A DNA stretch of 28,701 nt from a virus: IMG/VR virus record IMGVR_UViG_3300031957_002655, positions 1-28,701 of that record; one strand, 5' to 3'. Below are positions 7,094 to 23,450 of this stretch, in pieces. Within the stretch, counting starts at the first letter, position 1. The number at the start of each line of letters is the position of its first letter. Below the pieces are notes generated by a model. The model ran no database searches, was not told the origin of the DNA, and saw only the letters and a program-made list of their open reading frames with translations. A program made the translations under genes and the position numbers.

Positions 7094-7348
7094 TTATCGT
7101 CTTTTCCCTGCTCTATCATCTTGTTCTTTTTCCCACAAAGCTTGATCCGACCAATACTTAGGCGTTTTTTTCTTTGGCGGTGTAGAAAAAATACCTTTTC
7201 CAGGTATCACAATCTTTTTAGGACTAGGTTCTGAAGCTTTGCTAGCTTTCGCCTTTGTTACAACTTTCATTGCGTTAAAAGAATAGGCCAAAGAGGTTAC
7301 ACTAATGACCAAAGTCAAAAGGCTTATAATTATTGCTGCAATAACCAT
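7094..7348 (-). CDS. Small single-span membrane protein with basic tail
   Basis: The 84-residue protein has an N-terminal hydrophobic span (VIAAIIISLLTLVISVTSLA, about residues 2-21) and then a Lys/Pro-rich tail with PSPKKIVIPGKG and PPKKKTPKYW. It overlaps the end of the acetyltransferase gene by 19 bases. It may be a lysis-related or membrane-anchored phage protein. No family was recognised. Confidence 0.55.
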   Translation of the reverse strand: MVIAAIIISLLTLVISVTSLAYSFNAMKVVTKAKASKASEPSPKKIVIPGKGIFSTPPKKKTPKYWSDQALWEKEQDDRAGKRR

Positions 7349-7884
7349 TCATCCCTCAAGATCGATACAAGAGTACAGTTGATATAATTGCCATTGCGAT
7401 AATAATAATTACGCCTAATTCCATCTTTAGTCATTCCTATGTCTAAAAATGTTTTTAAAGCAGGATTGCCATCAAAGGTCTCACCCCAAACACAATTAAG
7501 GTTTAGGTACTTAAAAGCGTGGTCTATTAAGGTCTTTAACGCCCTTTTGCCATAGCCTTTTTTTTGGTGTTCTGGGCCTATATATAAACTAAATTCAGCC
7601 CTAGAATTGACGTTATCAATTGAAGTTAGGCCAGCACAACCAACCAGTGTAGGAAATGCTTTTGTTGTCCCTAACTCCGTTGTTCCTGGATAAATAATCG
7701 AATAAAACTTTTTATCGTGGCAACTATCCACCGAATACCAATAAGCATCATGTTGCGCCTTAGTAATAGGATCGTTTTGTCGGCACCATTTCCAAATGTC
7801 ATAGTCATTACGCCAGTGAAAGAACTGATCACGGTCGCTGTAAGTTGTATGGCCTAGATAAATGCCGTATACATGATCAATCAT
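7330..7884 (-). CDS. GNAT N-acetyltransferase (PseH/RimJ-like)
   Basis: The protein is 184 residues from ATG 7884 (GGAG six bases upstream), and the start overlaps the previous stop as ATGA. It resembles the acetyltransferase_3 branch of GNAT enzymes, which includes RimJ/RimL and the sugar acetyltransferase PseH. YLGHTTYSDRDQFFHWRND is the typical opening, AEFSLYIGPEHQKKGYGKRA carries the acetyl-CoA pyrophosphate loop (QKKGYGK), and CVWGETFDGNPALKTFLDIG follows with the usual N-x-x-x-x-x-F-x-x-x-G pattern. It lies in one transcription unit with dehydratase, aminotransferase and cytidylyltransferase genes. N-acetylation of an amino-sugar nucleotide is therefore the best guess; protein acetylation is the alternative. 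Confidence 0.75.
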   Translation of the reverse strand: MIDHVYGIYLGHTTYSDRDQFFHWRNDYDIWKWCRQNDPITKAQHDAYWYSVDSCHDKKFYSIIYPGTTELGTTKAFPTLVGCAGLTSIDNVNSRAEFSLYIGPEHQKKGYGKRALKTLIDHAFKYLNLNCVWGETFDGNPALKTFLDIGMTKDGIRRNYYYRNGNYINCTLVSILRDEWLLQQ

Positions 7885-8099
7885 TTCTGACTCCAATCTG
7901 TTTTATGCTGATAAAGCATAACCTTTTCTATAAATTCAACCAATTCCAGTTCCGTTTTTGGATATGCACCAAAGGTTTCCTTTATTAGGCTTTGATATTC
8001 GTTAACTGCCCCTTGGGCCTTCGTCTGTTTTGATTTAATTATGTTTTTCAGATCTTGAATTGATTCTACTTCTAGTTTTTTTGTTTCGATTCCACTCAT
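7881..8099 (-). CDS. Small helical protein of unknown function
   Basis: This 72-residue protein is mostly helical (TKKLEVESIQDLKNIIKSKQ, then a Tyr/Glu-rich part). GAGG precedes the ATG at 8099 by eight bases. Its first 65 bases overlap the end of the gene at 8035-8241 in another frame, and its stop overlaps the acetyltransferase start. The ribosome site and the coupling favour a real gene. Function is unknown. Confidence 0.5.
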   Translation of the reverse strand: MSGIETKKLEVESIQDLKNIIKSKQTKAQGAVNEYQSLIKETFGAYPKTELELVEFIEKVMLYQHKTDWSQK

Positions 8100-8241
8100 G
8101 ATTTAAATCCTCATAGTCCTTTATCATATCTTTAATTGCGCGTTTCATCTTATATTTAAGGCTCTGACTTCTAATTGAATTATATAAATCGTTAAGACAA
8201 TTGGTAATATCATAGATTGTTGTTCTAGTTTGTAATCTCAT
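8035..8241 (-). CDS. Small basic helical protein of unknown function
   Basis: This 68-residue, Arg/Lys/Asn-rich protein opens MRLQTRTTIYDITNCLNDLY. Its ATG overlaps the aminotransferase stop as ATGA, so it would be translated by coupling. The 3' part overlaps the next gene by 65 bases, long for this compact genome, so one of the two ends may be imperfect. No motif was recognised. Confidence 0.45.
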   Translation of the reverse strand: MRLQTRTTIYDITNCLNDLYNSIRSQSLKYKMKRAIKDMIKDYEDLNHEWNRNKKTRSRINSRSEKHN

Positions 8242-9437
8242 TTTCTAGCTTTCATTGAAAATGGGGACCTCGGTAATTCTCCTAAAAGTTTTGGCTTCGT
8301 TTTACTCATCTTTAAAATTATGTCTTTGCATGATTCAAGCGTGTTTTCTAATAAAGGTATGTGACTGTGACTTATAAACCAGGATTTACCAAACAAAATC
8401 CCAGCTAAACAAGCTTCTTGAAAAAACAAGGCAATGTTTTCTTCATTACCCTTAAATACCCCTCTAGTTGGGTATCCTTCTATGTGAAAGCTTAGTTCTT
8501 TTGAGGCCTCGTTAAATCCCTTCAGAAACTTTTCCCCAGCTTCCCAAAGTCTATCAATATGAAATTCTGGTTTAGTTCTTATAGTGTCTATGACTGCGTT
8601 ACATGCCGCTAGTGCGGTTATTTCACCGGCATAGGTTGAAGAAACAAAATAGTCATTGTCTAGTATCTCTTTAGGCCCACCAACTGCGGCTAAGGGGTAG
8701 CCGTTACCGCACGCTTTACCAATAGTTATTAAATCTGGGATCACGTTATAGTGCTTAGACACAGATAGAGACTTATATCTAAAGCCTGTAATGATCTCGT
8801 CAAAGATAAGAAGAATGCCATTTTCATCACAAATCCGACGAAGTCGGTTTAAATAATCAATTCTCTCTTTTGACGCATCAATGGCTATGGGTTCTGTAAT
8901 AATAGCCGCAACACTTAGAGGGTACTTTGTTAAATACTCCAAAGTTAAGGGCTTAATATATTCATGAGGTGGAACACCTTTGGCCGGTGGAGTAAGGCTA
9001 GTAAAAATATCTGCCCATCCATGGTAATATTCAGATAATATCACATTTCTTTCAGTATAGGCCCTAGCCATTCTTAAAGAAGCTAATGTTGCTTCTGTTC
9101 CCGTCTTTAAAAACTTCCACCTTTGGGTCCAAGAAAAACATTGCTTTAACTTTTCGGCAACTTCGACTTCGAGAATATGAGGCAAGCTAGGGCTTTTGCC
9201 TTGATGCCGATATTTCTCAACTTCTGACTCTATTAATGGATGTCCATAACCTAGAAGATTAGTGCCTAAACCGCCAGCAAAGTCTACGTATTTTTTATTT
9301 TCTGTATCAATGAGGTAAGGACCGGTTGAGGCCTTGATATGGGTTGGGTAGACTCCCTTAACGTGGGAATTCCAATGCTTTGAATTTGTAGTCGTTCCTT
9401 GCCCAATCGCATTCTCGGCCCTATTCTTATAACTCAT
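8238..9437 (-). CDS. Class III PLP aminotransferase (GSA-aminotransferase-like)
   Basis: The protein is about 399 residues from ATG 9437 (AGGA seven bases upstream; an ATG two codons earlier is too close to that site). It belongs to the class III, fold-type I PLP enzymes and is closest in pattern to glutamate-1-semialdehyde aminomutase. GTEATLASLRMARAYT binds cofactor phosphate, SEYYHGWAD stacks on the ring, and LLIFDEIITGFR carries the PLP-binding Asp near residue 213. TIGKACGNGYPLAAVGG holds the Schiff-base Lys near residue 241. Lying between a cytidylyltransferase and small genes in a sugar cassette, it probably transaminates a sugar or a sugar-like keto substrate rather than making tetrapyrroles. 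The exact substrate is unknown. Confidence 0.85.
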   Translation of the reverse strand: MSYKNRAENAIGQGTTTNSKHWNSHVKGVYPTHIKASTGPYLIDTENKKYVDFAGGLGTNLLGYGHPLIESEVEKYRHQGKSPSLPHILEVEVAEKLKQCFSWTQRWKFLKTGTEATLASLRMARAYTERNVILSEYYHGWADIFTSLTPPAKGVPPHEYIKPLTLEYLTKYPLSVAAIITEPIAIDASKERIDYLNRLRRICDENGILLIFDEIITGFRYKSLSVSKHYNVIPDLITIGKACGNGYPLAAVGGPKEILDNDYFVSSTYAGEITALAACNAVIDTIRTKPEFHIDRLWEAGEKFLKGFNEASKELSFHIEGYPTRGVFKGNEENIALFFQEACLAGILFGKSWFISHSHIPLLENTLESCKDIILKMSKTKPKLLGELPRSPFSMKARK

Positions 9438-9446
9438 AATCATATC

Positions 9447-10148
9447 CTAAACATAAAATACATTTTCCTGACCAACGTCCATTTCGGCCAAGCTCTTTTT
9501 TTTAAAAAAGTTACTTATTTTTGATTCAGCTTCGTCTAGTTCTGCCTGGGTATCGACTGATAACTTTATATCAGACATATCTAGGCGATTGAGGAAATGA
9601 CCCCTTTTTAAATGCGTAGGCTTTACCTCCCTTAACCGCACTGTTACATGTTCCTTTTCGGCCTCAGTCTTAGCCGTGCGGTTTAACCAGTTCAGAGCTT
9701 TTATACTCATTACTTCAATATCACGCCCGTCTAACTCTGTTCTTATTTTAGGGTCTACGTTTGATAAGTAATCAATATGGTTATTAACAGCTTTAAATAT
9801 ATGGTTGGTTATCATAAACCCAGTTAAAAAGGGACAATCGCCCGTTATTCGACAAATATAATCGGCCCTAAACTTAATTGCGCCATCAACATACCTTGAA
9901 AGAACATCAAATTCGTCCCCCTCAATAATGGGAATTTGGTTATAAGCCTTTTTGATTTCATCATCGTATGGGCAAAGAATAGCAACATAAACTTCTAAAT
10001 CACTTCGTCTACGTATAAAATTAGCAGAATCCAAACAAGCATTTAAAACCCATGTCAAAACTGGCTTATTATATAGTTTTGTTAGGGCCTTACCTGGCAA
10101 TCTTTGGCTAGTAGATCTAGCTTGAATACCTATTAAAACCCTAGTCAT
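9447..10148 (-). CDS. SpsF-like cytidylyltransferase (CMP-sugar synthase family)
   Basis: This 233-residue protein opens MTRVLIGIQARSTSQRLPGK, the nucleotide-binding signature of the SpsF/NeuA/KdsB cytidylyltransferases (QAR-x-x-S-x-R-LPGK). The metal-site motif RITGDCPFL follows at about residues 99-107. Such enzymes activate acidic or amino sugars with CTP. Length is normal for the SpsF branch. The gene overlaps the upstream oxidoreductase by eight bases and is followed by the aminotransferase. The stop is TAG. It would produce the activated donor for a glycosyltransferase; the sugar is not known. Confidence 0.85.
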   Translation of the reverse strand: MTRVLIGIQARSTSQRLPGKALTKLYNKPVLTWVLNACLDSANFIRRRSDLEVYVAILCPYDDEIKKAYNQIPIIEGDEFDVLSRYVDGAIKFRADYICRITGDCPFLTGFMITNHIFKAVNNHIDYLSNVDPKIRTELDGRDIEVMSIKALNWLNRTAKTEAEKEHVTVRLREVKPTHLKRGHFLNRLDMSDIKLSVDTQAELDEAESKISNFFKKKSLAEMDVGQENVFYV

Positions 10149-10815
10149 TAGTCCTTCCTAATATGGATATAACTTCCGTGCTCATATTCAATTGCTTCTG
10201 TTTCTTCTTATTTGCCTCAATCATTTCTACAACTTTGTCATGGGCGCTGTTTATGTATTCCATGTTTCCGGTTGGGTTCTGTACCCAGTCTTGAATCATG
10301 TCAACGTAGGCTTGTTCCATGTCTGCAAGCCCCAGTTCATGCCCGTTTATGGTGCATTGCCACCTAGCACTATCGGCCTTAATTTCACATTCACCCTTAG
10401 CCAAACCAATGATATTAATACAGTCCCACAAAAGGCCGTCGTTACCAGTCTTATAAAAGTTATATGAGGTTTTGCCCACAGTATCGGGCTTTGCTAGGTA
10501 TTTGTATTGGTTCACCATTCTTACGTTAGTTGGGTGTTGCCAATTCACGCTACATTTCGCAATAGGCTTTTCACATAAAATAGGAATCCCGTTAACGTAA
10601 CCATCAAAGATTTGAACGGCATCAAGGTGGGTCACAGTAGGGGTTGCAATAATTACCCCGTCTATTCCGTTATCTTTAACAAACGTTGCTTGTTGACTAA
10701 AAGAATGGTCGTTGTCCATTCCAAAAACTTCTAGGCCTAATTCTTTTTTACAAATTAGGGCGTACCTAGTCCCCATGTTTCCACTGAGACCAGAGATAAA
10801 AATCTTTTTTAACAT
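10141..10815 (-). CDS. Short Gfo/Idh/MocA-type NAD(P) oxidoreductase
   Basis: The N-terminal Rossmann fold is clear: IFISGLSGNMGTRYALICKK as the dinucleotide loop, DGVIIATPTVTHLDAV, and ILCEKPIAK with the family's catalytic EKP motif (about residues 81-85). At 224 residues it is much shorter than usual members (about 330-380), so the C-terminal substrate sheet is reduced to a small domain (about 95-224). It may be a compact phage version acting on a nucleotide sugar. It overlaps the cytidylyltransferase start and follows the dehydratase by two bases. The TAG stop is intact, and no frameshift is needed to explain the length. Confidence 0.75.
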   Translation of the reverse strand: MLKKIFISGLSGNMGTRYALICKKELGLEVFGMDNDHSFSQQATFVKDNGIDGVIIATPTVTHLDAVQIFDGYVNGIPILCEKPIAKCSVNWQHPTNVRMVNQYKYLAKPDTVGKTSYNFYKTGNDGLLWDCINIIGLAKGECEIKADSARWQCTINGHELGLADMEQAYVDMIQDWVQNPTGNMEYINSAHDKVVEMIEANKKKQKQLNMSTEVISILGRTND

Positions 10816-10817
10816 GC

Positions 10818-11684
10818 TTACCCCACTATCGGTTCAACCAGGTGCTTTAACTCTTCCAGGCTTAAACGTGGTGAATTGTCGGACCTAATACACTGTTGAT
10901 GGTCTGAGTGAAGGCATTCATGAAGCTTTTCACCTGGTCTAATACCTACAACCTCAACATCAAACTTTTTAATGCCCAAAACGTCGGCTATAGCTGTTGC
11001 CATGTCGAGGACTGGGGCCGCTTTCATGTCGGGGTAATTGACCCTTGTATTGTCACCTTTGAAGGTAAGCATGTAGTTAACAGCGTCTTCGATTCTCATC
11101 CAAAATCGAGTCATACGCCTATCAGTTATATAAACCTTGTTCTTTTCCTTTAAGGTCTTAGCAAAGAGATTAACAGCCGACCCCCTAGAGCCTACAATGT
11201 TACCCCAACGAAAGACGTTAAACTGTGTTGAGAAAGGTCCGTTTTGATTGAGGTGTAACAAATACCTTTCAGATATTGCCTTGGTCATTCCATAGACATT
11301 GATAGGTAAAACAGCTTTGTCCGTTGAAGTAAAATAAAATTCCCTAACACCGTGTTTAATTGCAGCCTGTGCCGAATTAATAGTTCCAACAATGTTAGTC
11401 GCATAAGCCTCTTCGGGGTTTTCTTCTAAAACATCAACATGCTTTAGTGCTGCAACATGAAAAACGGTCTTAATCCCTTCCATAGCCTTGTTTAAGCTTT
11501 CAGGGCTACGAATATCACCGAGTACAGTTTTAAGACCTGGGTATTTATGCCTTAGTTCATGTTGTTTAAGCTCGTCCCGACTAAAAACCACGCAATCACT
11601 CACGTCCAATTGATCTAAAAGGGCTTTGCCTAGGGTTCCAGTGCCACCAATTAATAAAACGGATCTTGTCAAAACCCCCTCCAT
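10818..11684 (-). CDS. PseB-like UDP-GlcNAc 4,6-dehydratase (short SDR)
   Basis: The 288-residue protein is an extended short-chain dehydrogenase of the PseB/FlaA1/CapD group, which makes the 4-keto-6-deoxy intermediate for pseudaminic acid and related amino sugars. The Rossmann loop is LIGGTGTLGKALL (about 11-23), VFHVAALKHVDVLEENPEEA follows, and FTSTDKAVLPINVYGMTK carries the Asp-Lys and Tyr-x-x-x-Lys catalytic residues (about D122, K123, Y131, K135). VVGIRPGEKLHE near the C-terminus is the PseB signature. The start overlaps a small membrane protein gene by 16 bases. It heads the sugar cassette. No pseudaminate synthase (PseI) gene is in the window, so the pathway here is partial. Confidence 0.85.
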   Translation of the reverse strand: MEGVLTRSVLLIGGTGTLGKALLDQLDVSDCVVFSRDELKQHELRHKYPGLKTVLGDIRSPESLNKAMEGIKTVFHVAALKHVDVLEENPEEAYATNIVGTINSAQAAIKHGVREFYFTSTDKAVLPINVYGMTKAISERYLLHLNQNGPFSTQFNVFRWGNIVGSRGSAVNLFAKTLKEKNKVYITDRRMTRFWMRIEDAVNYMLTFKGDNTRVNYPDMKAAPVLDMATAIADVLGIKKFDVEVVGIRPGEKLHECLHSDHQQCIRSDNSPRLSLEELKHLVEPIVG

Positions 11685-16225: not shown

Positions 16226-18124
16226 TTACCTCTTACCCTTGATGTTATAGTTAAATCTAAAGCCATGAACTTTAAACCTTTGATCTGCTGTATTTTGATT
16301 ACTAAATTTAAAGGCTATTCGTTTCCCTTTTGAGGTGCCTAAAAATATTCTTTTGTCTTCTTGGTTAGAACCACCACCCCAAGTAGCGTCACCCCAAGTA
16401 AAAGCTTGCCATAAAGTTGATTGTGGATCTAAATTTATTCTTTGAACATTACCAACACCCGAATCTGAATCTAATTTTATAATTAAATCCATAAAATACG
16501 CGCCTGGTTTATCAAAAAGTACTTGTAGAGTCCTAAAATCTTTTTGTACATCATCCTCGCCTTTGAGGCCTGAAAACTCCTTAGATTCCCAATAGGAGTC
16601 TATGGCAGTTCCTTCGTCATTGTATGACGATGTTTCAAGCTGTTTGACAAGTCCAGTTGCCGTGGATTCTCCAAAATACAATTTGTTATTATAGATAGTA
16701 AATTGAGTAGGATTAAGACCAGTATAAGGAACCCATGCACCACGTTTTCTTTTAGCCAAGTTTGATATTGAATAGTCATAGACATAAATCCTATTGTTTT
16801 CTGTGTTGCCGTCTCCATGTGTCACAGCAAGATAAAGTCTATTTTTAAAACTTATAGCGGATATATTACCTAGATATGTTTGTTGTATGTCGAACATATT
16901 AGGTTCGATCACGTCAGATTGTAGTTCTGAGCCTGCTACCGAAACAGTTAAAAACGTTGCACTTGGTTCTATCGTATCACCTTGTAAGGAAGCAAAACCA
17001 ACAAATTCACCCCCTTGTGTAGCAGGAAACATAATCCTGTTTTCATACTCAATAGCACCGTAGGGTGATTTTGATCCTAATGTTGTTCTAGCTTGAACCA
17101 CTAACCAATTAGAAGCATCAGTGTCAGGCATGTACACAATATAAGTATGTCTAGCTCCAAAGGCGACAATACCATTATCAAAAACCTCGATACCTTTTAA
17201 AAGATCACCTGAGTTATCCCCAATTCTTAAAAAGTTTGTGGCTTTAAAAACATAGGGATTTGCTAATTCTGAATACCACAAAAAGTTGCCGTTACTAACA
17301 TCATTACAAAAAAGTCTATTCTGATGTTCTTTAACAAAAGAATACTGCGGTGGAACTCCCTGATCTGTTGGGGCTTCTGCTCCTAATTCGGCATCGTCTT
17401 TGTTGTCTTCATAGGTTGTGGTTGAATTGTCGCTAATTGTATCGACAAGTAGGAACGTTGTTCCGCTTGTGACTGTTCTATATAGTTTTCTAGCATTAAC
17501 TCCATAAGACGCCGGTGCTGTTGGGATAGTGACATCAATGGAATCTGAAGTCGCGGCCAAAGTAGCGGTTGCGCTACCGACATCCCCCTCAACCACGTTT
17601 GTATTAACATAGGTCACCTTCCATCTATAGTCCCCTGTTAGAGTTCCATTCGAGGCAGTTGTTGCGGTAGGTGCCGATTGAGGTGAAGGTATGCCATGCC
17701 TAGTAAAAAGACTTCCGTCCCATTTATAAGGATTGGTCACACCTGACTGACCTATGAATAGGTAATTTTCATACTCAGCAGCACCAATTCTAACGCCTGA
17801 ATTAAACACAGATTGAGCCGATGGAATTGTCACAAATGTAGTGGACTGGAGATCGTACATATCCCCACCCCCAAAGCATACCATCGTCTCAGAGCCGTCA
17901 TTGTCATGACGTGTATAGAGTCCATCTATAATATGTGAGCCTATGGCTGAGGCTACAGACGTTGATCCTCCTCTTGTGCCTGCCGCCCCGTTTTCAAATA
18001 GAACATTGGCACAATCAGGGCTTTCATTGTCTGGAATTATAGTTTTTGCGAATTTAGTATCAAGGCCGCCGTCTAGCAGCAAACGACCAGAGGGAGGATA
18101 TGCTCTATCAAAAAACGCGGTCAT
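16226..18124 (-). CDS. Tail nozzle / head-completion stabilisation protein (P22 gp10-like role)
   Basis: This 632-residue, beta-rich protein has repeated blade-like segments (ENYLFIGQSGVTNPYKWDGS, then ENRIMFPATQGGEFVGFASL and NNKLYFGESTATGLVKQLET) as in beta-propeller tail proteins. Residues about 155-245 form an Ig-like insert with the pattern ARKLYRTVTSGTTFLLVDTI followed by DNSTTTYEDNKDD. In short-tailed phages such proteins (P22 gp10-type or T7 gp12-type) cap the adaptor and close the head channel. The start overlaps the adaptor gene as ATGA, and this adaptor-nozzle order supports the call. Assignment to one named family is not certain. Confidence 0.7.
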   Translation of the reverse strand: MTAFFDRAYPPSGRLLLDGGLDTKFAKTIIPDNESPDCANVLFENGAAGTRGGSTSVASAIGSHIIDGLYTRHDNDGSETMVCFGGGDMYDLQSTTFVTIPSAQSVFNSGVRIGAAEYENYLFIGQSGVTNPYKWDGSLFTRHGIPSPQSAPTATTASNGTLTGDYRWKVTYVNTNVVEGDVGSATATLAATSDSIDVTIPTAPASYGVNARKLYRTVTSGTTFLLVDTISDNSTTTYEDNKDDAELGAEAPTDQGVPPQYSFVKEHQNRLFCNDVSNGNFLWYSELANPYVFKATNFLRIGDNSGDLLKGIEVFDNGIVAFGARHTYIVYMPDTDASNWLVVQARTTLGSKSPYGAIEYENRIMFPATQGGEFVGFASLQGDTIEPSATFLTVSVAGSELQSDVIEPNMFDIQQTYLGNISAISFKNRLYLAVTHGDGNTENNRIYVYDYSISNLAKRKRGAWVPYTGLNPTQFTIYNNKLYFGESTATGLVKQLETSSYNDEGTAIDSYWESKEFSGLKGEDDVQKDFRTLQVLFDKPGAYFMDLIIKLDSDSGVGNVQRINLDPQSTLWQAFTWGDATWGGGSNQEDKRIFLGTSKGKRIAFKFSNQNTADQRFKVHGFRFNYNIKGKR

Positions 18125-20733: not shown

Positions 20734-21780
20734 TTAGAAAAGTAAGCGTCTAGTATTGTGATCAGGTTTTTCAATCTGTTCTTTGCCAATATCAGACATA
20801 TTTAGTTCGTTTAAAAACATTCCAAGGGGCATCTGTGTTATAGCCCTTAAATTACCATGTGCATAAGAACCGAGAGTGCCACCCTCAGAACAATTTACCA
20901 TCCATTGACTATAAAATTTAGTTTCTGGATTATTATCTGGGATACTTAAGGCCAAATATTCAAACCAGTTTTTAAAGTTCTTATATGATGGCCAAGTAAA
21001 AACTTTGTTACCAAACACATCATGATGTGGGATAACATGCCCTCTTTTTTGGTCATATTTGGAATCCCAAGAGTGGAACTTTTGATGCGTTTTGTTATCA
21101 AAACAGAAATCGGCTCCAACCATACCGACACGATGAACGCCTAGAATAGCTTTTGCAAAATACAGACAAGCGCCTAAGACATTGCCACCATTTCCGATAT
21201 TGACATGAAAAGGTTCAATTTCCTCCATGGCTTCAAGATAGGCTTTATCTGGAACAGGCGCGGCAAAGACATAGATCTTACCTTGCCATTTCTTGAAAAG
21301 GTCGGGATGTGAACCAGTGAACGCTATTAACGTTCGATCCTTGGTTAATTTCCAGTACTCATCCTCGGACTTTTTACCGCCTTCGGATACCTCTTCAATA
21401 ACTACAGGGCCGGCATCTAGGCTCACGTAGTAATCTACCTTAACGCCTAGGTCTTCAAAAAAATGAAAGTTATGAAGACAGGAAATAAGCGGAATGTCAC
21501 CTTTGTTTAAAAGTTCTTTTCCGTTTACCCCTAGGCTTGGCCCTGAGCCGGCGCAGATTGCTACCCCGTATTTATTCTTTTGAAAAAGCTGGCCCACGCT
21601 GAATTCCTTGAATGTACCAAGGTATTCTTTGTTAGCTCTAGTATTATCAATCCAGGTTTTGCGCCATGACTCGATCGTCACCGAGTCATTGGAACAAGCT
21701 TGATTGAAGAGTTGAGCCGGCGCAACGGGTGGCTCATCAATGTAATCGTTATAGATGAGCGCAATTTCTGCTGTTCTCAC
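20734..21780 (-). CDS. Maf/DUF115-type glycosyltransferase-like protein
   Basis: This 348-residue protein carries the core of the MAF/DUF115 (MptE-like, PF01973) family. GVAICAGSGPSLGVNGKELL holds the hallmark GSGPSL, GVKVDYYVSLDAGP follows with the family Asp, and GGNVLGACLYFAKAILGVHR and GMVGADFCFD close the Rossmann-like domain (about residues 70-225). Maf proteins transfer nonulosonic acids such as pseudaminic acid to Ser/Thr of flagellin. The gene lies among head genes right after a Ser/Thr-rich head protein, and the same operon holds a PseB-like and other sugar genes. Start is GTG 21780 with GGAG ten bases upstream. Glycosyltransferase activity is inferred from family; a pterin-type kinase is the alternative. 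Confidence 0.7.
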   Translation of the reverse strand: MRTAEIALIYNDYIDEPPVAPAQLFNQACSNDSVTIESWRKTWIDNTRANKEYLGTFKEFSVGQLFQKNKYGVAICAGSGPSLGVNGKELLNKGDIPLISCLHNFHFFEDLGVKVDYYVSLDAGPVVIEEVSEGGKKSEDEYWKLTKDRTLIAFTGSHPDLFKKWQGKIYVFAAPVPDKAYLEAMEEIEPFHVNIGNGGNVLGACLYFAKAILGVHRVGMVGADFCFDNKTHQKFHSWDSKYDQKRGHVIPHHDVFGNKVFTWPSYKNFKNWFEYLALSIPDNNPETKFYSQWMVNCSEGGTLGSYAHGNLRAITQMPLGMFLNELNMSDIGKEQIEKPDHNTRRLLF

Positions 21781-22280: not shown

Positions 22281-23450
22281 TTAGCTAGTTAGTCCAGTCA
22301 ATGCACCAAGTAGACGGTTGTTACCAGAGGTAAATGCCATCATGCTATAAATTTTGGCTACCATCACGTTCTGATCCAGAGGCTTCTGGAAAGGCTCGAA
22401 ACGCATATCCTCGTCTCTATGGACATAGAGTTTCACTACGTCCTCATTGATGAAGAAAAAGTGGTTAGCAGGAGCATGGGAATCAGCAATAACTGGTATT
22501 CCGTTGAACATAAGAGAGGAAAAACCACCCTTAGCAGTATCAGAATCTGTAAACCTTTGTTGTGGTTGCAACAAGGAGTAGTAGTAGTTGAATACCGCAC
22601 GAGGGCATAGAGCTACTGTCGGGGCCATGTTGTCTACTGTGGCATCGTTGTAGACCGCTTGAAGTGCAGACATTGAAGTAACAGTTGTAGTTGAGTCTAC
22701 GTTTGACTGCCACCAGCTGTAAGTAGATTGACTAATTCCACCTACGGTCTGGTCTGTTGCACAGAAGTCACGAAGACCAACGATAGACTTAGCATCAGAA
22801 CCATCTGAGTAAAGACCAGTTCCGATTCGGTCTAACATGGACTTTTCTGCATTCTTCATCTTTGACTTAACAAAGTTAAGTTTTGCAGCGTCACCACTGT
22901 TCTTTAGTTCGTCACTTCTCTTGATAGAGATGTTTTCATAAATTTGCTTCCAAGAGTAATCTGCAGAAGTGATTACGTCTGTGTCTGAAGTGTCAAGAGT
23001 GTCAGCTCCTGAGTACCAGCCACCAGCGCCGTTGATAGCATACTCCAACGGAACCAAAATCTGAGTACCACCGTCGATCTTGACCATAGATCTTTCTTTG
23101 ATCCGACGAAGGTAAGGGTTTGAGTCAAAAATATTATCTTCTAGCTTCGGCACATAATATTTTTCAGTGATCAGTTTGTTATCCCAAAGGCTTTTTATCC
23201 CTTGGTTCTAGACCTTGATTTAAGCCTAGCTCAGCGTACATCATCACCTACTTGAGGTGTCGGACACTCTTGGGAGGATTATATTCTTTTTCAAGGTTCA
23301 CCTCCTACGCGTTACGGTGGTTAGACTTGTTATGGTCTAACTTACCTCGGTGTTGGCGTCTCAGCTTTTCACCGATTTTGCCCGATTTGCAACACGCCTC
23401 TCAGCGTGAGGGGCCCATCAAGCCGAAATCTGATCGTATGTTAAAGCCAT
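22281..23450 (-). CDS. Major capsid protein, gene split by a group I intron
   Basis: Exon 1 is 23450-23421 (MALTYDQISA) and exon 2 is 23171-22281, beginning ITEKYYVPKLEDNIFDSNPY. Joining them gives a continuous 306-residue HK97-fold-type capsid protein with the standard N-terminus of this family (MALTY-x-x-ISA-ITEK). Without splicing the exon 1 frame meets TGA at once (GCT TGA). AAGGG lies seven bases before the ATG at 23450. Later features include the IKRSDELKNSGDAAKLNF segment and the C-terminal RFEPFQKPLDQNVMVAKIYS. The gene follows the scaffold gene and precedes the decoration protein. A start at GTG 23153, which would give 290 residues, lacks a ribosome site and the conserved N-terminus. 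Confidence 0.9.
23172..23420 (-). ncRNA. Group I self-splicing intron (249 nt, ORF-less)
   Basis: The 5' exon ends in U and the intron ends in G. The internal guide UGAUGGGCC pairs both ways: GGCC with the exon 1 end GGCU through a U-G pair (P1), and UGAU with AUCA, the first bases of exon 2 (P10). Further pairings seen are P2 CCUC/GAGG (23411-23397), P3 GUGUUG (23395-23390)/CGACAC (23262-23257) and P5 UCGGUG/CACCGA. P6 is a perfect 7-bp hairpin at 23341-23320. P7 is GCGUA (23310-23306)/UACGC (23238-23234), with a GGAGG...CCUCC hairpin between P7 and P3 as in subgroup IA. P8 is CACCU/AGGUG (sharing three bases with P3 as drawn) and P9 is AGGCUU/AAGCCU. No homing endonuclease frame is present. 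Confidence 0.88.

Follow-up and report, generated by a model that had tools for sequence, protein, structure and literature searches.

The window, i.e. the whole 28,701-nt stretch of viral DNA analysed here (IMG/VR record IMGVR_UViG_3300031957_002655), carries on its minus strand a major capsid gene which, as read from the sequence, opens with an ATG at position 23450 behind a Shine-Dalgarno-like AAGGGA. An earlier sequence-only reading had pointed out that the capsid frame is broken close to its start, and this is confirmed: a TGA follows directly after codon 10 (MALTYDQISA) and the frame resumes 249 nt further on, at 23171, as ITEKYYVPKLED. Excision of positions 23420 to 23172 gives a capsid protein of 306 amino acids, and the 249-nt insert itself contains neither an open frame joining both exons nor an ORF in the capsid direction. 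The features of the locus are given below in the order of transcription; percentages are paired cells in the alignment of the intron family, and R1 is the covariance model described further on.

23421–23450, minus strand: exon 1, MALTYDQISA, 30 nt, last base U (sequence; aligned with 11 intronless relatives)
23172–23420, minus strand: group I intron, 249 nt, ORF-less, terminal G at 23172 (assigned by R1 match, covariation and blastn homology)
23418–23420, minus strand: in-frame UGA stop, which is intron nucleotides 1–3 and also lies in the P10 guide strand (sequence)
23412–23424, minus strand: P1, exon GGCU (23424–23421) with guide GGCC (23415–23412), U.G at the 5' splice site (sequence; equivalents in L157, L073 and L093)
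23417–23420, minus strand: P10, guide UGAU (23420–23417) pairing with exon 2 AUCA (23171–23168) (sequence)
23379–23385, minus strand: P3, 5' strand UCGGGCA (covaries)
23370–23375, minus strand: P4, 5' strand UCGGUG with 3' strand CACCGA (23352–23347) (coordinates, covariation)
23356–23365, minus strand: P5, short, GC (23365–23364) with GC (23357–23356) (77%, double changes)
23316–23346, minus strand: P6 GGU/ACC and P6a GUUAGAC/GUCUAAC (23341–23335 with 23326–23320) (89% and 94%)
23306–23310, minus strand: P7, 5' strand GCGUA, with bulged C 23311 and G23310–C23234 as the guanosine-site pair (96.8%)
23273–23305, minus strand: P7.1, hairpin GGAGG/CCUCC between P7 and P3' (97.8%; all 5 pairs change on both sides)
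23260–23266, minus strand: P3, 3' strand UGUCCGA (covaries)
23245–23259, minus strand: P8, CACCU/AGGUG (94.2%)
23234–23238, minus strand: P7, 3' strand UACGC, with J8/7 AUGAUG before it (covariation)
23208–23229, minus strand: P9, CUAGGCU/GGUCUAG (96.6%)
23184–23205, minus strand: P9.1, CCAAGGG/CCUUUGG, followed by the conserved GAUAACA (97.7%)
22281–23171, minus strand: exon 2, ITEKYYVPKLED...LTGLTS (phrog_9953 major head protein match)

At the protein level, exon 2 alone scores 195.1 bits against phrog_9953 with a match from profile position 21, and exons 1 and 2 together score 202.4 bits from profile position 7. The joined capsid is thereby an SU10-like phrog_9953 protein matched over its full length (E = 2.3e-59, profile positions 7–327 of 329). 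In the exon 2 frame, the upstream stop is a TAG inside the insert; from there, no ATG, GTG or TTG occurs before position 23153, where a GTG is not preceded by an evident Shine-Dalgarno sequence. Unspliced RNA should therefore not yield full-length capsid. For the unprocessed virion capsid, the predicted N-terminus is (M)ALTYDQISAITEK.

Few relatives came up when exact peptides of capsid, portal and terminase were searched, which was remedied by searching IMG/VR with A3, a profile of related capsids. The relatives retrieved in this way are 50–63% identical to the window capsid and, in the alignment, uninterrupted at the same junction (L147–L156, L158 and L160; L158 and L160 are truncated downstream of it). 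As L151 and L153 look identical here, the proposed search for an intronless capsid allele returned eleven distinct examples, among them L156 with MALTYDQISG/ITERKF and L149 with MALSVDQLNA/ITEKYY (slash at the junction). The joined window protein agrees with them codon for codon at this point and, because the relatives are unbroken there, the position of the junction is established by comparison, independently of any RNA fold. A second contig, L001, shows 2 differences from the window over 6388 positions, both outside the intron, and its insert is 100% identical, which argues against an assembly error. No capsid relative was found in the prokaryote genomes searched, and hence no host is proposed.

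The RNA of the insert shows the boundary features of group I introns as they had been claimed, i.e. an exon-end U paired with G in P1 (GGCU/GGCC), a terminal G, and P10 (AUCA/UGAU). The conserved core P3-P4-P6-P7-P8 with its P3/P7 pseudoknot is likewise present, J3/4 reads AAA, and P7.1 is the extra hairpin between P7 and P3' by which subgroup IA is recognized, as also claimed. Among the stems drawn earlier, P3 and P5 to P9 hold up under covariation, P5 being short, while P2 can be drawn in two ways, CACGC/GCGUG or CCUC/GAGG. A first reading of P3 as CGUGUUGC/GUAACGCG was dropped since it leaves no space for P7, and UCGGGCA/UGUCCGA covaries. The insert folds with a z-score of −3.45 (1 of 200 shuffles folds as well); RNAfold alone does not display P7, as is expected for a pseudoknot.

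P3 to P9.1, including the P3/P7 pseudoknot, covary across 104 members of the intron family, for which 54 pairs in 10 helices were evaluated. Of 4918 pair cells, 88.5% form standard pairs, while shuffles give 61.5% and slid alignments 31–43%, a figure to be read with the fact that the alignment was fitted to the nested helices and favours those, P3 standing outside that fit. Both sides change in 50 of the 54 pairs, and the covariation score is 0.567 versus 0.153 in shuffles; none of 500 shuffles reached the observed value on any measure, and sliding abolishes the signal. The first pair of P7, the guanosine site, is G-C in 91 of 95 members. Pairing of P3 is lower overall (57% of cells), probably because many rows are misaligned in the 5' part: of the 29 rows in which P4 is perfect, 24–25 pair in P3, and four show gaps at that place.

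Model R1, a covariance model of ten intron homologues from other phages with the window left out, gives a sole match in the window, running end to end from 23388 to 23177 with 195.6 bits (E about 4e-57 by rough calibration), although R1 is not fully independent, its source sequences having first been found through similarity to the window. This is the top score among the first 85 sources scanned. Across 445 kb of related loci, mostly capsid-gene loci, the single R1 match is the real intron of L157, so that the model is specific. Together with the covariation and the unbroken relatives, this score bears out the earlier assignment of an ORF-less, group IA-like intron after codon 10. The database search for the intron that had been suggested was fruitful as well: besides L001, L157 and L073, low-stringency blastn aligns 80% of the insert at about 70% identity with other phage records, and intron-like DNA of this kind lies in unrelated genes from phages of Bacillus, Staphylococcus and Clostridioides. 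The contexts include the neighbourhood of endonuclease and helicase genes (Bacillus phage PJN02), a position adjoining a tape-measure gene (Arcanobacterium phage TPWB06), and a split DNA polymerase (Alicyclobacillus phage MMB025), where the match covers 71% of the insert at 68% identity.

In contrast, the match to Rfam RF00028 that had been proposed as a check does not exist for the window insert, neither at gathering nor at relaxed thresholds, even at E 10. On 15 loci with sister introns, RF00028 reported one intron, located elsewhere in L016, while it recovers the introns of T4 and Twort; hence, the miss reflects the limited sensitivity of that model. A match to RF00028 is a search aid, not a defining feature of group I introns. 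Matches of the insert to the c-di-GMP-I and sodium riboswitches were discarded as chance (14.4 bits against cut-offs of 35 and 40.5).

The closest intron found besides the identical L001 copy is a 259-nt member of the same family in L157, 77% identical over 212 nt, which interrupts a capsid gene 59% identical to that of the window at a different site, near codon 233 (FNG/IPIVHDSH), and has its own U and G ends, P1 (GGU/GCC) and P10 (GGAA/UUCC). In L073, a 225-nt intron follows codon 10 (MANVTTTTAA/NFIPEVW) of a gene of the unrelated capsid family phrog_267; further positions in capsid genes are after codon 17 in L093 and near codon 22 in L086, and equivalents of P1 are legible in L157, L073 and L093. 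L073, L093, L031 and L086 thus carry introns of this family within the first 10–22 codons of partly unrelated major capsid genes, for which no enrichment is claimed, as the scanning of downstream exons is biased to early insertions. Downstream exons identified as major head proteins belong to phrog_9953 (L072, L086), phrog_267 (L073, L093, L031), phrog_1005 (L045) and phrog_1328 (L032), and up to 17 of the 73 downstream exons scanned match tape-measure families. Within the family as sampled here, insertion into tape-measure and capsid genes is common. Consequently, the rarity of introns in capsid genes assumed at the outset was overstated, also in view of published cases (PMC3706429, PMC7886860). 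As a separate observation, the phrog_9953 capsid gene of L086 (4603–6277, minus strand) holds several R1 matches in series, of which two are weak, and apparent endonuclease-type ORFs lie between its exons.

Taken together, the major capsid gene of the window is almost certainly interrupted after codon 10 by a minimal, ORF-less, self-splicing group I intron. We infer that it splices and does so efficiently, that it is nearly neutral, and that it arrived by homing or recombination without an endonuclease of its own. In the late transcript, P1 would form between the guide sequence and the end of exon 1, and a guanosine bound at the G-C pair of P7 would attack behind the U of GGCU; exon 1 would next attack behind G23172, with exon 2 kept in place by P10, so that the capsid message runs through all 306 codons without a break. 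Ribosomes would be halted ahead of the core by the UGA (intron nucleotides 1–3), and splicing would be efficient enough to serve a structural gene expressed late, as demonstrated for the phage LittleE. Neither the intron nor any of the 18 proteins of the window scanned with Pfam revealed a homing endonuclease; present mobility would hence require recombination or a partner endonuclease encoded elsewhere, for which collaborative homing is a precedent.

A near-neutral, ORF-less intron is the simplest reading. It has been suggested that splicing might gate late capsid synthesis through GTP level or RNA folding, and a real intron could indeed also be exploited in that both splicing and the output of capsid depend on translation, growth state or GTP. 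We consider this improbable. The 30-nt exon 1 and the stop codon would bring an initiating or terminating ribosome onto P1 or right beside it, early insertions are seen in further capsid genes, and, according to work referenced in PMC3073962, efficient splicing of T4 introns needs translation of the upstream exon and correlates with growth state; beyond this general dependence in T4, nothing was found in support of the proposed gate. A stop codon at the splice junction, however, is a general layout of group I introns that keeps ribosomes out of the core, eleven close relatives manage without an intron, the Rfam scan found no aptamer in the insert, and the intron is not conserved at this site outside the identical contig L001. 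Similarly slight is the chance that insertion within the first ~10–22 codons of several unrelated capsid families constitutes a translation-coupled switch for late capsid output; if it did, the starting ribosome would regulate folding and splicing of the intron.

It is highly improbable that the insert is a decayed, non-splicing intron or an assembly artefact and that the true capsid start is GTG 23153: the missing Rfam match would fit, but the window holds the leading R1 score mentioned above, L001 carries the identical intron, the relatives conserve the exon 1 sequence, and this GTG has no evident Shine-Dalgarno sequence. Programmed ribosome bypassing of a 249-nt structured gap, as in T4 gene 60, would accommodate the stop codon at the start of the gap and the correct frame behind it, but is hardly credible for a gap far longer than the known bypass that comprises a full group I core with covarying P3–P9.1, U and G boundaries with P1 and P10, and homologues in unrelated genes.

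With a self-splicing intron as the preferred explanation, automatic annotation would miss the true N-terminus of the window capsid protein and would probably split many genes for tape-measure proteins, terminases and capsids. The motif GGATAAAAAGCCNNNNNGATAACA from the 3' end of the intron matches at least 120 IMG/VR stretches, indicating a broad family of short phage group I introns overlooked by the single model of Rfam, and the presence of this family in structural genes corrects the view that replication genes are the main targets of phage introns.

Two further gene groups of the window deserve mention. At 8238–11684 (minus strand), genes for a class III aminotransferase, a cytidylyltransferase, a Gfo/Idh-type oxidoreductase and a Polysacc_synt_2 epimerase stand in a row, with a GNAT gene nearby (7330–7896), and together they resemble a pathway for a nonulosonic-type surface sugar in a phage. 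A gene for an MptE-like (PF01973) protein (20734–21780, minus strand) is embedded among the virion genes and follows shortly downstream of the capsid region. This family includes the flagellin-glycosylating Maf proteins, and the PF01973 protein might use the sugar of the nearby pathway to modify a virion protein.

Among known systems, the window intron is IA-like and distantly related to the orf142 introns of Staphylococcus phage Twort, for one of which, orf142-I2, a crystal structure exists. R1 gives matches of 31.4 and 24.5 bits in Twort (AY954970, about 16973–17506), which we take to be these group IA2 introns. Twort P7 (ACGACUA/UAGUCU) aligns with that of the window (ACGCGUA/UACGCU) in the same layout including the bulged C, and both share the extra hairpin between P7 and P3', P9/P9.1 and a UAACA-type 3' end, whereas host gene and sequence differ, the latter being distant, and RF00028 recognizes the Twort introns but not the window's family. 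Splicing of Twort introns has been published (Landthaler and Shub 1999). Mycobacteriophage LittleE likewise has a group I intron inside its major capsid gene, with splicing demonstrated by RT-PCR and N-terminal sequencing (PMC3706429). That intron, however, measures about 820 bp and contains a putative homing endonuclease, as opposed to 249 nt without an ORF in the window, and gives a weak RF00028 match and none with R1; by R1 search, both the BAKA and LittleE introns fall outside the R1 family. A capsid-gene intron has also been reported for Tuc2009, and crAss-like phages carry group I introns in core genes including MCP, those in capsid genes being described as typical of the delta group (PMC7886860), although they were identified mainly by endonuclease domains and belong to a different phage order from the window. 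Set beside these systems, the window intron is a new case of a known type of genetic parasite, not a new mechanism.
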